Source: Candidatus Nanopelagicaceae bacterium
GTDB taxonomy: Bacteria > Actinomycetota > Actinomycetes > Nanopelagicales > Nanopelagicaceae
Reading direction: 5' to 3'
Assembly (NCBI GenBank): GCA_009694285.1
Contig: SHVK01000002.1
Location: 1-64,000 of the forward strand
DNA: 64,000 bases
Shown: piece by piece, positions 27,253 to 35,560 of the stretch
How the letters are laid out: each line of letters begins with the position of its first letter
How positions within the stretch are numbered: the stretch's first letter is position 1
Position numbers and translations under genes: made by a program
The notes under the pieces: model-generated
Databases searched by the model: none
What the model saw: the letters and a program-made list of their open reading frames with translations, nothing else
What the model was told of the DNA's origin: nothing

Positions 27253-28700
27253 GCTTTTTCGGCTAGGGATTCTTTCCCAATTTTTAAAAGTACCGCCATC
27301 ACCACTGCTGCGATAAGCAAGAAGGTAGCACCAGTTTTAAATGCAGTGGTGTAACCGTGGGTTAAAGCAAAAAATTGCGCTTTATCTCCTAATTCAGGAT
27401 GGGTTATTAGGTAATTTGCAGCGGAAGTTGCCGCGATGGTATTTAACAAAGCAGTGCCAAGAGATCCACCAACCTGCTGACTGGTATTGAGTGCAGCACT
27501 TGCTACTCCAGAATCACGCCCACCGATTCCATGGAGTGCTGTTGTTGAAATTGAAATAAAAACTAAAGCCATACCAGTACTTATTATTACTAACATTGGA
27601 AGTACATGTGTCGCATAACTTGTATCCGGGGTAATAGTTGATAAAAGCAGTAATCCAATTGACCCTTGAATTAATCCCCAAACAATCAACGGCTTTGGCC
27701 CGACGCGGGGTAATAGTTGAGTGGTGACTCCTGCAGATGCAATTACTCCGAGCGAGAATGGCAAAAAGGCAAAACCAGTCTTTAGGGGGGAGTAGCCCAT
27801 AATTACTTGGAGGTATAAGCCGAGAAATAAGAACATCGAAAATAAACCAGCACCAACCATCATTGAACCAAGATATGAACCACCGCGATTTCGTTCGGTG
27901 ATAATGCGTAACGGAAGCAGCGGATTTTTAACATTTTTTTCAATCATGAAAAAAGCGAGCAATAAGATGGCGGCGATGGCAAGGAAGCAAAGAGTTGAAC
28001 CTGTTACCCAACCAACTTTAGCCGCTTGCGTAAACCCATATACCAAACTAAGTAAACCAAGTGTCGCAGTTATCGTCCCAGGCAGATCATAAGAGTGATC
28101 TCCTCCGGCTTTTGATTCGTGCACAAAAGGATAGGCAAGAAGGGCGGCGATAATTGCGATTGGAACATTGACCCAGAGACACCATCTCCATGAAGCAAAT
28201 TCGGTGAGTGCTCCGCCAAGAATTAATCCAATCGCAGCGCCGCCGCCGGCAATAGCACCGTAAACACCAAATGCTTTTGCCCGCTCTTTAGGAATGGTAA
28301 ATGTTACGTTAATTAGCGAAAGCGCCGATGGCGTCAGTAACGCCCCAAATGCACCTTGCAATGCGCGCGAAGCAAATAAAATCTCCTGTGATTGTGCTAT
28401 TCCACCAAGTGCTGATGCACCGGCGAAACCAAGTAGGCCGATAATAAAACTTTTCTTCCGTCCAATAAAATCGGCGATTCGACCGCCGAGAAGCAGCAAA
28501 GAGCCAAAAGCAAGAGTGTACGAAGTTACCACCCAACTTTGATTTGCATCACTGATTCCTAAATCAATTTTGGCACTGGGTATTGCAATATTTACGATTG
28601 AGGAGTCAAGCACCACCATCAACTGGGCGATTGCGATTACAAATAGGGCCCTCCATCTAGTTGGATCTGGAGTTTGGGTTGGTGGTTGGGCGAAACTCAT
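27249..28700 (-). CDS. MFS transporter, DHA2 (EmrB/QacA) family
   Basis: 483-residue membrane protein with about 14 hydrophobic segments, the count typical of DHA2 drug:proton antiporters. Motif C-like [11 protein letters not shown] lies in the first helix region and motif A appears as [12 protein letters not shown] after helix two. Substrate range cannot be read; members export antibiotics, dyes or metabolites. It runs against gatB, sharing four bases at the stops, and diverges from ilvD over a spacer of about 40 bases. Confidence 0.87.
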
Positions 28701-28704
28701 ATCT

Positions 28705-28734
28705 TTGGCTGCTTTCCAATTTGTTGCTTATAGT
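28705..28734 (+). promoter_or_regulatory. Promoter for ilvD
   Basis: TTGGCT (28705-28710), 18-base spacer and TATAGT (28729-28734). The in-frame ATG at 28744 is nine bases after the -10, so the mRNA would be nearly leaderless. On the opposite strand the same bases read TACTAT, so the divergent MFS gene may use an overlapping -10. Confidence 0.5.
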
Positions 28735-28743
28735 ATGAGCACC

Positions 28744-30435
28744 ATGAGCCAGACCGCTAACTCTAACCCAATGAAGCCTCGATCAGGGATGGTTACTGAT
28801 GGCCTTGAGCGTGCACCTGCGCGCGGAATGTTACGGGCTGTTGGAATGGGTGATGCTGACTGGGTTAAGCCACAAATCGGAATTGCATCTTCATGGAATG
28901 AGATCACTCCGTGCAACCTTTCACTAAATCGACTTGCATCTGCTTCAAAAGAAGGTGTGCATGCTGCTGGTGGTTTTCCGATGCAATTTGGAACCATTTC
29001 AGTTTCTGATGGAATTTCAATGGGTCATGAAGGAATGCACTTCTCGTTAGTTTCTCGTGAAGTTATTGCCGATTCCGTTGAAACAGTTATGCAAGCAGAG
29101 CGACTTGATGGAATGGTTTTGTTAGCCGGTTGCGATAAATCTTTGCCAGGCATGATGATGGCGGCAGCGCGCATAGACGTCGCAAGTGTTTTTATTTACG
29201 CGGGAACAACTTTGCCAGGAAGTGTTGACGGAAAAGATGTCACGCTGATCGACGCGTTCGAGGCAGTAGGTGCTTGCGCACGTGGATTAATTACCCGTGA
29301 TGAAGTGGATCGGATTGAACGAGCAATTTGTCCAGGAGAAGGTGCATGCGGAGGTATGTACACCGCTAACACCATGGCATCGATCGCTGAAGCAATCGGA
29401 ATGTCATTACCAGGATCAGCCGCACCACCAGCGGTGGATCGTCGTCGTGAAAGTTTCTCGCGCCAATCTGGTGAAGCAGTTGTTGAATTAATTCGTCAAG
29501 GAATAACAGCGCGCGACATTATGACTAAGAGAGCTTTTGAAAATGCGATAACAATTCTCATGGCGCTGGGCGGATCAACAAATGCGGTTTTACATCTTTT
29601 AGCTATGGCACATGAAGCAGATGTAGAATTGGAACTTCATGATTTTCATCGCGTCGGATCTAAAGTTCCATTACTCGGAGATTTAAAGCCTTTCGGTAAA
29701 TTTGTCATGAGCGATGTTGACAAAGTTGGTGGAATTCCAGTCGTACTGCGTGCTCTCCTTGATGCAAAACTTTTACATGGCGATTGTTTAACTGTCACTG
29801 GCAAAACCATGGCTGAGAATTTAGCAAATCTCGCACCACCAGGTGCTGACGGTGAAGTTCTATATGAAACAAAGGCTCCATTTTCATCAAGTGGTGGAAT
29901 CACAATTCTTGGCGGTTCGTTAGCCCCACAAGGTGCGGTAACAAAAGTTGCTGGAATTGGCGTTGATGTATTTGAAGGACCGGCACGAGTTTTTGAGCGC
30001 GAGCAGAGCGCGATGGAAGCACTTGAAGATGGAACCATTCAAGCCGGTGACGTAGTTGTAATCCGTTACGAAGGTCCAAAAGGTGGACCTGGAATGCGGG
30101 AGATGTTGATGATCACCGGTGCAATCAAAGGTGCTGGCCTGGGTAAATCTGTCCTTTTGCTCACCGATGGTCGCTTCTCAGGCGGAACTACTGGATTATG
30201 TGTTGGCCATGTTGCCCCTGAGGCGGTTGATGGTGGCCCGATAGCACTGGTTAGAGATGGGGATCGAATCAAGATCGACACCATCGCGCGCACCTTGGAC
30301 CTATTAGTAGCGCCAGCTGAATTAGCCGAACGGGCCAAATCATTTAAGCCTTTACCGAACAGATATACCCGCGGCGTTTTGGCTAAATACGCCAAATTGG
30401 TTGGCAGCGCCTCGAAAGGCGCAGTCTGCGATTGA
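28744..30435 (+). CDS. ilvD: Dihydroxy-acid dehydratase
   Basis: Fe-S dehydratase converting dihydroxy acids to 2-oxo acids in valine, leucine and isoleucine synthesis. 563 residues from ATG 28744 (ATG 28735 adds three). Cluster-ligand cysteines appear in [15 protein letters not shown] and [12 protein letters not shown], the pattern of IlvD. An upstream open frame reaches back into the divergent MFS gene but has no coding sense. It is followed by the ilvB attenuator region, so it is probably a separate transcript from ilvBNC. Confidence 0.95.
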
Positions 30436-30467
30436 TAGATAGGTCAGTTTTTAACTGAATGAGGTAG

Positions 30468-30499
30468 CCCACATAAATTGGGGTTGACCAAAATGTGGG
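30468..30499 (+). repeat. Inverted repeat flanking the ilvB -35 region
   Basis: CCCACAT (30468-30474) and ATGTGGG (30493-30499) are perfect inverted arms separated by 18 bases; the -35 TTGACC lies between them. It could be an operator, or a weak hairpin at the end of the ilvD transcript (no T-run). A second small palindrome, CAGTT-TTT-AACTG, lies at 30445-30457. Confidence 0.4.
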
Positions 30500-30513
30500 T
30501 AAGAGAGGACAAT
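30484..30513 (+). promoter_or_regulatory. Promoter of the ilvB leader
   Basis: TTGACC (30484-30489), 18-base spacer, GACAAT (30508-30513). The predicted start of transcription, about seven bases downstream, coincides with the A of the leader-peptide ATG at 30520, so the leader peptide would be translated from a leaderless RNA end. Confidence 0.55.
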
Positions 30514-30519
30514 AGAAAC

Positions 30520-30558
30520 ATGTCAAAAATTCTCGTGGTAGGACAGCGCGCGATCTAG
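30520..30558 (+). CDS. ilvBNC leader peptide (attenuation)
   Basis: A 12-residue open frame reading MSKILVVGQRAI then TAG. Five of its twelve residues are isoleucine, leucine or valine, the end products of the operon that follows. It precedes a terminator hairpin by 22 bases. This is the layout of branched-chain attenuation known for ilvBNC in Corynebacterium. The AGAGGA upstream could be a ribosome site, or part of the promoter if the RNA is leaderless. It is too short for automatic gene callers. Confidence 0.8.
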   Translation: MSKILVVGQRAI

Positions 30559-30606
30559 CATCTCTTGGATCGTGTGCCACCCCTCAGTGCAGACACTGAG
30601 GGTTTT
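30546..30606 (+). terminator. Transcription attenuator ahead of ilvB
   Basis: First helix: GCGCGCGATC (30546-30555, within the last leader codons and up to the stop) pairs with GATCGTGTGC (30568-30577), 10 bp with two G-U pairs. Terminator: CCCTCAGTG (30581-30589), loop CAGA, CACTGAGGG (30594-30602), then TTTT. Ribosome stalling on the Ile/Leu/Val codons would cover the first arm and free the second to compete with the terminator; that antiterminator fold was not computed. Confidence 0.8.
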
Positions 30607-30664
30607 CGCATTAAATGGGAGCTTTTGCACTTACCCCCGATAGCAAGGAAAAGGAGCGTGAACG

Positions 30665-32407
30665 ATGAGCGATAAGAAGATGAATGGGGCAACTAGCCTG
30701 GTGCGGTCATTAGAGCACGCCGGCGTTGATGTGATCTTTGGAATTCCGGGCGGTGCAATATTGCCAGCTTATGATCCGCTTTTCGACAGCACTATTCGCC
30801 ACATTCTGGTTCGTCATGAACAAGGAGCCGGACATGCTGCAACCGGCTATGCACAAGCAACTGGTCGAGTTGGCGTTTGCATGGCCACTTCAGGCCCAGG
30901 TGCAACAAATTTAGTTACCCCTATTGCAGATGCACAGATGGATTCAGTCCCGATGGTTGCCATTACTGGCCAAGTTCCATCAGGCGCAATTGGAACTGAT
31001 GCATTTCAAGAAGCAGATATTCGTGGAATATCGATGCCAATTACAAAACATAATTATTTAGTAACAAATCCAGCAGATATTCCACAGGCGATTGCGGAAG
31101 CATTTCACATCGCCGCGACCGGTCGTCCCGGAGTTGTGCTTGTAGATATTGCCAAAGACGCACTAACTTCCGAAACTACTTTTAATTGGCCAACCTCTAT
31201 CTCGCTACCAGGTTATCGCGATCACTCGCAATCAAAACAGAGTGATGTTGATGATGCCGCAGCATTAATTGCGCAATCATCTCGGCCAGTTCTCTATGTT
31301 GGTGGAGGAGTAATCAAATCAAATGCGAGCCGCGAATTACTTGCGCTCGCCGAAGCAAGTGGAATTCCGGTTGTAACGACTTTGATGGCGCGCGGTGCTT
31401 TCCCAGATAGTCATCCGCTTCACTTAGGTATGCCGGGAATGCATGGCACCGTTGCTGCTGTTACTGCACTGCAAAAATCAGATTTACTTATAACTTTAGG
31501 CGCACGTTTTGATGATCGCGTTACTGGGAAACTTTCAACATTTGCCCCTGTTGCAAAAGTTATTCATGCCGATATTGATCCAGCAGAAATTGGAAAAAAT
31601 CGCAAAGCTGATGTGGCAATCGTTGGCGATGTAAGAAATACCATCAACTTGTTACTTCCTGCCGTAAAGGCTCAATATGCAAAAGCTCGACCAGATTTCA
31701 CTGCATGGATCAAGCAAGTTAACTCTTGGCGTTCTACATTCCCACTGGGTTATGACATTCCAAAAGATGGCTCGTTGTCACCACAATATGTCATTGAAAG
31801 ATTAGGGAAGATTTCTGGTCCGGATACGATCTTTACCGCGGGAGTAGGCCAGCACCAGATGTGGGCTTCGCAATTTATCTCATATGAAAAGCCACGCACT
31901 TGGCTTAACTCTGGTGGCTTAGGAACTATGGGTTACGCAGTTCCCGCAGCGATGGGAGCGAAAGTTGGCGCACCAGATAGCACCGTGTGGGCAATTGATG
32001 GGGATGGTTGTTTTCAAATGACCAATCAAGAGTTAGCTACTTGCGCTCTAAACAATATTCCGATCAAAGTTGCGATTATTAATAATGAAAGTCTTGGCAT
32101 GGTTCGTCAATGGCAGACATTGTTCTACAACGAGCGTTACTCAAATACAGATCTGCATTCAAAGCGAGTTCCTGATTTCACAAAATTAGCGGATGCAATG
32201 GGTTGTATTGGATTGCGCTGCGAGCGACCTGAAGATGTTGACAAGACAATTGAAAAAGCGATGTCAATTAATGATCAACCTGTCGTAGTTGATTTTGGAG
32301 TTTTTAGAGATGCAATGGTTTGGCCGATGGTTGCAGCCGGAACATCCAATGACGAAATAATGGTTGCGCGCGAACTTGCGCCCGACTGGGATTCGCAGGA
32401 TCTCTAA
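30665..32407 (+). CDS. ilvB: Acetolactate synthase large subunit
   Basis: Thiamine-diphosphate enzyme making acetolactate or acetohydroxybutyrate, the first common step of branched-chain synthesis. 580 residues: catalytic Glu in [10 protein letters not shown], the [10 protein letters not shown] loop, and ThDP/Mg motif starting [12 protein letters not shown] and ending IINN. ATG preceded by AAAAGGAGCG. Regulated by the attenuator upstream. The stop overlaps the ilvN start (TAATG). Confidence 0.96.
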
Positions 32408-32898
32408 TGAATGTACAACGAACCTTTCATACAATCTCTGTTTTAGTTGAAAACCGTTCTGGAGTTTTAGCGCGCGTATCGGCGCTCTTCTCACGTCGCG
32501 GTTACAACATTGAAAGCTTGTCAGTTGGACCAACTCAAGATCCGCAATTTTCGCGAATCACAATCGTAGTAAGTGTTGAAGGTCATGCACTTGATCAAGT
32601 TATTCAGCAATTAGATAAATTGGTCAATGTAATCGCAATTGAAGAGATGCATGAAAGTTCTTCAGTTCAGATTGAACTGTTATTAGTAAGGGTTTCAGTT
32701 ACGGCCGCCAACCAAGAAAAGTTGCGGACACTAGTCGCCGAGCATGGAGGCAAAATGGCTGAGATGGGGTCAACTTCAGCAATCGTCTCGCTAACTGATA
32801 CTTCAACCAAGATTGAAGCCCTTGTGAACGCCCTTAACCCCTTCGGAATCCTCGAATTAACGCAGTCCGGGCTGGTCGCCATGAGGCGTACGATATAG
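32407..32898 (+). CDS. ilvN: Acetolactate synthase small (regulatory) subunit
   Basis: ACT-domain regulatory subunit that confers valine feedback on IlvB. 163 residues; the N-terminal ACT domain reads TISVLVENRSGVLARVSALFSRRGYNIESL and the C-terminal half matches the ALS_ss_C domain. The start shares one base with the ilvB stop, so stoichiometric coupling is likely. Confidence 0.96.
   Translation: MNVQRTFHTISVLVENRSGVLARVSALFSRRGYNIESLSVGPTQDPQFSRITIVVSVEGHALDQVIQQLDKLVNVIAIEEMHESSSVQIELLLVRVSVTAANQEKLRTLVAEHGGKMAEMGSTSAIVSLTDTSTKIEALVNALNPFGILELTQSGLVAMRRTI

Positions 32899-32937: not shown

Positions 32938-35560
<2,623 letters not shown>

Follow-up and report, generated by a model that had tools for sequence, protein, structure and literature searches.

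Organization of the ilvB upstream region

The window, i.e., the whole stretch of DNA that was analysed, covers 64,000 nucleotides of a Candidatus Nanopelagicaceae genome of 1.28 Mb in 50 contigs. The nearest relatives of its ilvB gene, in the named records, were metagenome-assembled actinobacteria labelled Ca. Nanopelagicaceae or Nanopelagicales, together with related bins. All on the + strand, the genes are arranged in the order ilvD, leader region, ilvB, ilvN, ilvC, serA and leuB. The listed ilvD ORF opens with a TTG codon about 67 codons ahead of the region matched by IlvD families (28570-28770), and its true start probably lies further in. It ends at position 30435, 48 nt upstream of the -35 box of the leader promoter, and a terminator scan found none between ilvD and this promoter. 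At the other end of the cluster, the listed serA ORF begins within ilvC, 34 bases from the end of that gene (33947-33981; start codon as predicted), an overlap that suggests translational coupling within an ilvBNC-serA-leuB operon. The features considered here are the following.

30484-30489, + strand: -35 element TTGACC, read from the sequence; in 74/74 non-redundant family promoters, TTGAC precedes the leader start by 35-37 nt
30508-30513, + strand: -10 element GACAAT, read from the sequence; offset conserved in the 74 non-redundant family promoters
30520 (+/-1), + strand: predicted transcription start, from the position of the -10 element
30520-30558, + strand: ilvL leader peptide ORF, MSKILVVGQRAI, 12 codons, predicted leaderless; from translation and a conserved mini-ORF in relatives
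30529-30540, + strand: presumed control codons Ile4 Leu5 Val6 Val7 (ATT CTC GTG GTA), matching a conserved Ile/Leu/Val run in relatives
30546-30577, + strand: hairpin P1, 13 bp, presumed antiterminator; from folding, covariation and a class-wide placement flush against the terminator
30581-30606, + strand: intrinsic terminator, 9-bp stem (30581-30602) followed by TTTT; fold of -15.1 kcal/mol, conserved stem
30651-30656, + strand: Shine-Dalgarno sequence of ilvB, AAGGAG, read from the sequence
30665-32407, + strand: ilvB, acetolactate synthase large subunit; NCBIfam NF005860, 1081.7 bits for a cut-off of 881
32407-32898, + strand: ilvN, acetolactate synthase small subunit; NCBIfam NF008864, above cut-off
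32953-33981, + strand: ilvC, ketol-acid reductoisomerase; NCBIfam NF004017, above cut-off

A sequence-only reading had proposed a promoter TTGACC-18-GACAAT, and it is present as described at 30484-30513, with an 18-nt spacer and only 6 nt (AGAAAC) between the -10 element and the ATG at 30520. A promoter scan of 30300-30700 returned this single site, the shuffled sequences giving 0.4 on average. The same reading correctly gave the 12-residue leader MSKILVVGQRAI at its coordinates, as well as a first helix overlapping the last leader codons. This helix, P1, was however longer than the 10 bp announced, the fold giving 13 bp with arms at 30546-30558 and 30565-30577 around a 6-nt loop, the 5' arm taking in the final codons of the leader, stop codon included. 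The 9-bp terminator with T-run placed ahead of ilvB was also recovered (arms 30581-30589 and 30594-30602, 4-nt loop), the T-run being limited to four T (TTTTCGCATT); as the strict scan requires five, the terminator was not listed by it. Three unpaired nucleotides, CAC, lie between P1 and the terminator. The fold of 30520-30606 reached -36.6 kcal/mol (z = -4.5), and none of 200 shuffled sequences was as stable.

Two further elements surround the promoter. A 7-bp inverted repeat, CCCACAT...ATGTGGG, flanks the -35 box (30468-30500) and is imperfect in the closest relatives, e.g., locus L003. Besides, an element resembling CAAATATTGAGAT-N4-ATCTCA is conserved directly upstream of GGGG-TTGAC, 45-65 nt before the leader start, in L014, L021, L022 and other family loci, and is degenerate in the window (30455-30475). 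It may be an operator; it did not match the published motif of NdgR, the IclR-type regulator that binds upstream of ilvB in Streptomyces coelicolor (PMC4340878).

Conservation of the leader ORF and of its start

The regions upstream of ilvB were compared among 124 family loci (Nanopelagicaceae-type actinobacteria) and other Actinomycetes. A mini-ORF rich in branched-chain amino acids (BCAA), preceded by TTGAC at 35-37 nt and by a -10 element at 12-13 nt, was found before ilvB in 121 of the 124 family loci, one of the three others having a truncated upstream region, and BCAA-rich mini-ORFs were also present in 47 loci of other Actinomycetes. The leader ORF is thus conserved, with 72 distinct peptides over the 121 loci. 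A run of at least three Ile, Leu or Val was seen in 71 of these 72 peptides and in 30 of the 31 distinct peptides from other Actinomycetes, counts that are somewhat inflated since the starts were chosen partly by the same criteria; despite this selection, nearly all loci gave such a start. The five Ile, Leu or Val residues pointed out by the sequence-only reading were indeed counted, but among the 11 residues following Met their number does not reach significance by itself (P about 0.11, with the 25% of neighbouring proteins as background). Hence, the BCAA richness of the leader is significant because it is conserved and not from its own composition. Near the end of the peptide, a conserved Arg-Ala/Val may reflect a constraint on the RNA (CGCGCG) and not on the protein.

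Among the 74 non-redundant family promoters, the -10 hexamer lies 12 nt (67/74) or 13 nt (7/74) upstream of the start codon. At the fixed offset, its second base is A in 93% and its sixth is T in 96%, percentages subject to the same inflation. A Shine-Dalgarno-like 4-mer (GGAG, GAGG or AGGA) occurred no more than 16 nt from the leader start in 27/74, versus 54/74 near the assumed ilvB start, as predicted for a leaderless leader gene. The leaderless reading of ilvL is well supported by this comparison, but unproved here. It was also considered that the attenuator is real while a longer RNA reading through from ilvD serves as an additional, or even the main, template for leader translation, most transcripts then not being leaderless and the purine stretch at -10 (GAGAGG here, GGAG in many relatives) acting as Shine-Dalgarno sequence. 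The closeness of ilvD with no terminator in between, and the 27 relatives carrying such a 4-mer, would agree with this. However, the other 47 relatives are without any, and the conserved positions fit a -10 element and a spaced TTGAC, not a Shine-Dalgarno core. Besides, mapped starts are leaderless or nearly so: in Streptomyces lividans, IlvL (MRTRILVLGKRVG) is leaderless by transcript mapping (PMC8079986; Craster 1999 cited there), and in Corynebacterium glutamicum transcription begins 1 nt before the leader ATG (PMC11857589). Translation from read-through RNA, whether additional or predominant, was judged unlikely.

Hairpin P1 and its spacing from the terminator

Covariation in P1 was evaluated in 58 non-redundant relatives with the arms anchored at the base of the hairpin. 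Within species, the arms were paired at 86% of 11 positions, a value that leans upward as the structures were folded from the same sequences and as part of the alternation comes from a base shifted by one position. When the 3' arms were swapped between species, pairing fell to 49% on average and 62% at maximum (500 trials). Hence, despite this upward lean, the two arms of P1 change together, and the covariation looked for was found in this stem. G-C, C-G, A-U and U-A interchange at most P1 positions, and clear compensatory cases are illustrated by GCTCGCGATC/GATCGCGAGC in L025 and GCGCGTGAAC/GTTCACGCGC in L044. RNAalifold run on a MAFFT alignment recovered only five P1 pairs with little covariation, as the variable loop misaligns the arms, which is why base-anchored arms were used instead. 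P1 includes the stop codon in 139 of 165 loci and begins 1-5 nt past it in 25 more, so that a ribosome at the stop codon would cover the 5' side of P1 in nearly all loci. In lineages with a shorter ORF (e.g., MSTTFVVVI), P1 still stands just past the stop codon, which indicates that the RNA helix is maintained independently of coding.

The terminator stem, CCCTCAG...CTGAGGG, was nearly invariant in the 58 relatives. The bases past the stem (30603-30612) are conserved beyond the T-run, as TTTTTGCATT in the family and TTTTTTGTTG in many other Actinomycetes. The span of P1 varied from about 17 to 70 nt, whereas its base and its adjacency to the terminator were conserved: the gap was 0-2 nt in 151/165 loci across the class, being 0-1 nt in 109/120 family loci and 0-2 nt in 41/45 other loci.

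Thermodynamic exclusion between structures is the usual core of attenuation. In the window leader, no antiterminator excluding the terminator was found by folding, invasion energy or simulation of ribosome positions. Indeed, P1 and the terminator fold together without shared bases, invasion of the terminator 5' arm by upstream RNA gained only 0.6 kcal/mol, and the terminator stayed intact when the leader was masked. In the absence of a ribosome, the untranslated leader paired with 34% of the terminator 5' arm on average. It was set aside as an antiterminator since the pairing region would be hidden under a ribosome positioned at the control codons; such pairing is also expected by chance between G-rich Val codons and a C-rich arm.

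These results bear on a classical trp-type attenuator, in which the P1 3' arm would pair with the terminator 5' arm as a competing antiterminator upon stalling at the control codons. Every other part of a classical attenuator is present. However, when leaders were folded with a ribosome placed either at the control codons or at the stop codon, the terminator 5' arm of the window was paired at 23% and 31%, respectively, i.e., in the order opposite to the classical model. For the control-codon position, the median share of this arm paired with upstream RNA was 2% over 103 family leaders, and in most of them this folding gave no classical 2:3 antiterminator. Only minority subgroups (e.g., the L012-L019 group and L156) reached 64-70%. 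Together with the persistence of the terminator after masking, this makes the classical arrangement improbable for the window. As for a plain terminator with an unrelated hairpin and a chance ORF without regulatory role, the unremarkable composition of the peptide and the short T-run could be cited in its favour, but it is hardly credible, since the ORF, the promoter spacing, P1 and the terminator are all conserved in the family and in other Actinomycetes.

Proposed control of the operon and counterparts in Actinomycetes

In all likelihood, the region controls the ilvBNC operon by translation-dependent transcription attenuation, with a leaderless ilvL, P1 as antiterminator and the terminator as its parts; the BCAA attenuator with leaderless leader peptide suspected in the sequence-only reading is thus favoured by the comparative evidence. 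Such a switch would very probably turn amino-acid synthesis off at ample supply of isoleucine, leucine and valine. RNA polymerase would start on the leader ATG, or within 1 nt of it, and a 70S ribosome would load at the RNA end. Under shortage of Ile-, Leu- or Val-tRNA, the ribosome would stall at codons 4-7, P1 would fold downstream, the terminator would be inactive and ilvBNC would be transcribed. By positional reckoning, a ribosome at codons 4-6 leaves P1 free, and at Val7 it begins touching the P1 base. Instead, when the three amino acids are plentiful, the ribosome would reach the stop codon, cover the P1 5' arm and hold P1 open, so that the terminator would fold and transcription end at about 30606. 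The parts, their conservation, the covariation of P1 and the fixed promoter-to-ATG spacing are established as far as comparison of sequences goes; stalling, and the way in which P1 would block the terminator, are what we infer beyond these, while the direction of control is taken by analogy from C. glutamicum and Mycobacterium tuberculosis. P1 is by position the counterpart of the antiterminators of these two species and is thus most likely an antiterminator, formed at starvation and opened at sufficiency.

Indeed, the leader belongs with systems already described. Leader peptides and terminators upstream of ilvB were predicted in 2005 for Corynebacterium, Mycobacterium and Streptomyces (PMC1262725). 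Of the features of actinobacterial leaderless ilvL leaders, the window shows a BCAA-rich mini-ORF before ilvB and a stop-codon hairpin directly followed by an intrinsic terminator; a transcription start at the leader ATG is predicted from the -10 element 6 nt before it and the conserved spacing. It shares with ilvL of the S. lividans and S. coelicolor ilvBHC operon the ILV core and the C-terminal R-[AV] motif (in S. lividans, MRTRILVLGKRVG), as well as a P1 base AGCGCG/CGCGCU around the stop codon followed by a flush terminator before ilvB, P1 spanning 53-69 nt in Streptomyces versus 32 nt here. According to the citation in PMC1262725, mutation of candidate regulatory codons was without effect in the ilvB leader of S. 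coelicolor. With the Corynebacterium ilvL, or ilvB-II motif, it shares the BCAA codons and a hairpin bordering the terminator; the Corynebacterium transcript starts 1 nt before the leader ATG, and a start within 1 nt of this codon is predicted here. In C. glutamicum, a Val-to-Ala change in the leader abolishes valine-dependent expression and ATG to AGG cuts expression by 80% (PMC11857589); the antiterminator hairpin borders the terminator, and the effect of start loss is explained by a further hairpin, H1 (PMC11857589, PMC10272879). In ilvB-II, a GCC trinucleotide is common to antiterminator and terminator, and H1 serves as anti-antiterminator, whereas here the gap is unpaired and neither feature is evident. 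The M. tuberculosis ilvB1 leader likewise combines a BCAA uORF, with LVVI codons, and a terminator: LVVI to AAAA abolishes induction, a terminated RNA of about 120 nt exists, and the antiterminator is masked once the ribosome stands at the stop codon (PMC13236596). In that model, antiterminator and terminator are mutually exclusive, unlike the adjacent hairpins without shared bases found here. Leaderless polycysteine uORF attenuators of mycobacteria (Canestrari 2020, as cited in PMC13236596) also rely on an amino-acid-sensing short ORF, but with cysteine instead of BCAA and at other genes. No Rfam 15 family scored above its gathering threshold in the window (best sub-threshold E = 5.9 in a permissive leader search), and a degenerate DNA pattern of the C. 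glutamicum leader gave no match in 395 genomes.

Against the proposed attenuator stand its short T-run, the ineffective codon changes in S. coelicolor, and the co-folding of P1 and terminator with little gain from invasion by upstream RNA, so that thermodynamic exclusion is absent here. Because the two hairpins share no bases and lie 3 nt apart, blocking of the terminator by P1 would most likely be steric or kinetic, which is what we infer from the conserved adjacency and favour. The conserved flush spacing suggests, without proving, antitermination by adjacency instead of sequence competition. As a tentative generalization, possible although on the doubtful side, in Actinomycete ilvB attenuators P1, folded while the ribosome stalls upstream and standing flush at the terminator base, might hamper terminator closure within or at the RNA exit channel without sequence competition, and a ribosome at the stop codon would lift the block by opening P1. 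In its simple version, such a mechanism predicts an operon that is on without translation, and the lowered expression upon start loss in C. glutamicum counts against it; no hairpin comparable in strength to H1 was seen in the window.

Leaderless ilvB attenuation is already known in kind, from the mapped starts of Streptomyces and Corynebacterium and from genetic proof in C. glutamicum and M. tuberculosis, and the literature searched contained no report of attenuation in Nanopelagicales. The unexpected point is mechanistic, in that P1 abuts the terminator and no excluding antiterminator was found. The present locus would extend the leaderless, translation-dependent BCAA attenuator to the streamlined freshwater actinobacteria of the Nanopelagicaceae. 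Besides, it points to one anatomy through much of the class Actinomycetes, with a fixed promoter-ATG spacing, a stop codon in P1 or just before it, and a terminator flush against P1. This shared anatomy offers a concrete reason why the way in which ilvB is regulated had not become clear from previous comparative studies.
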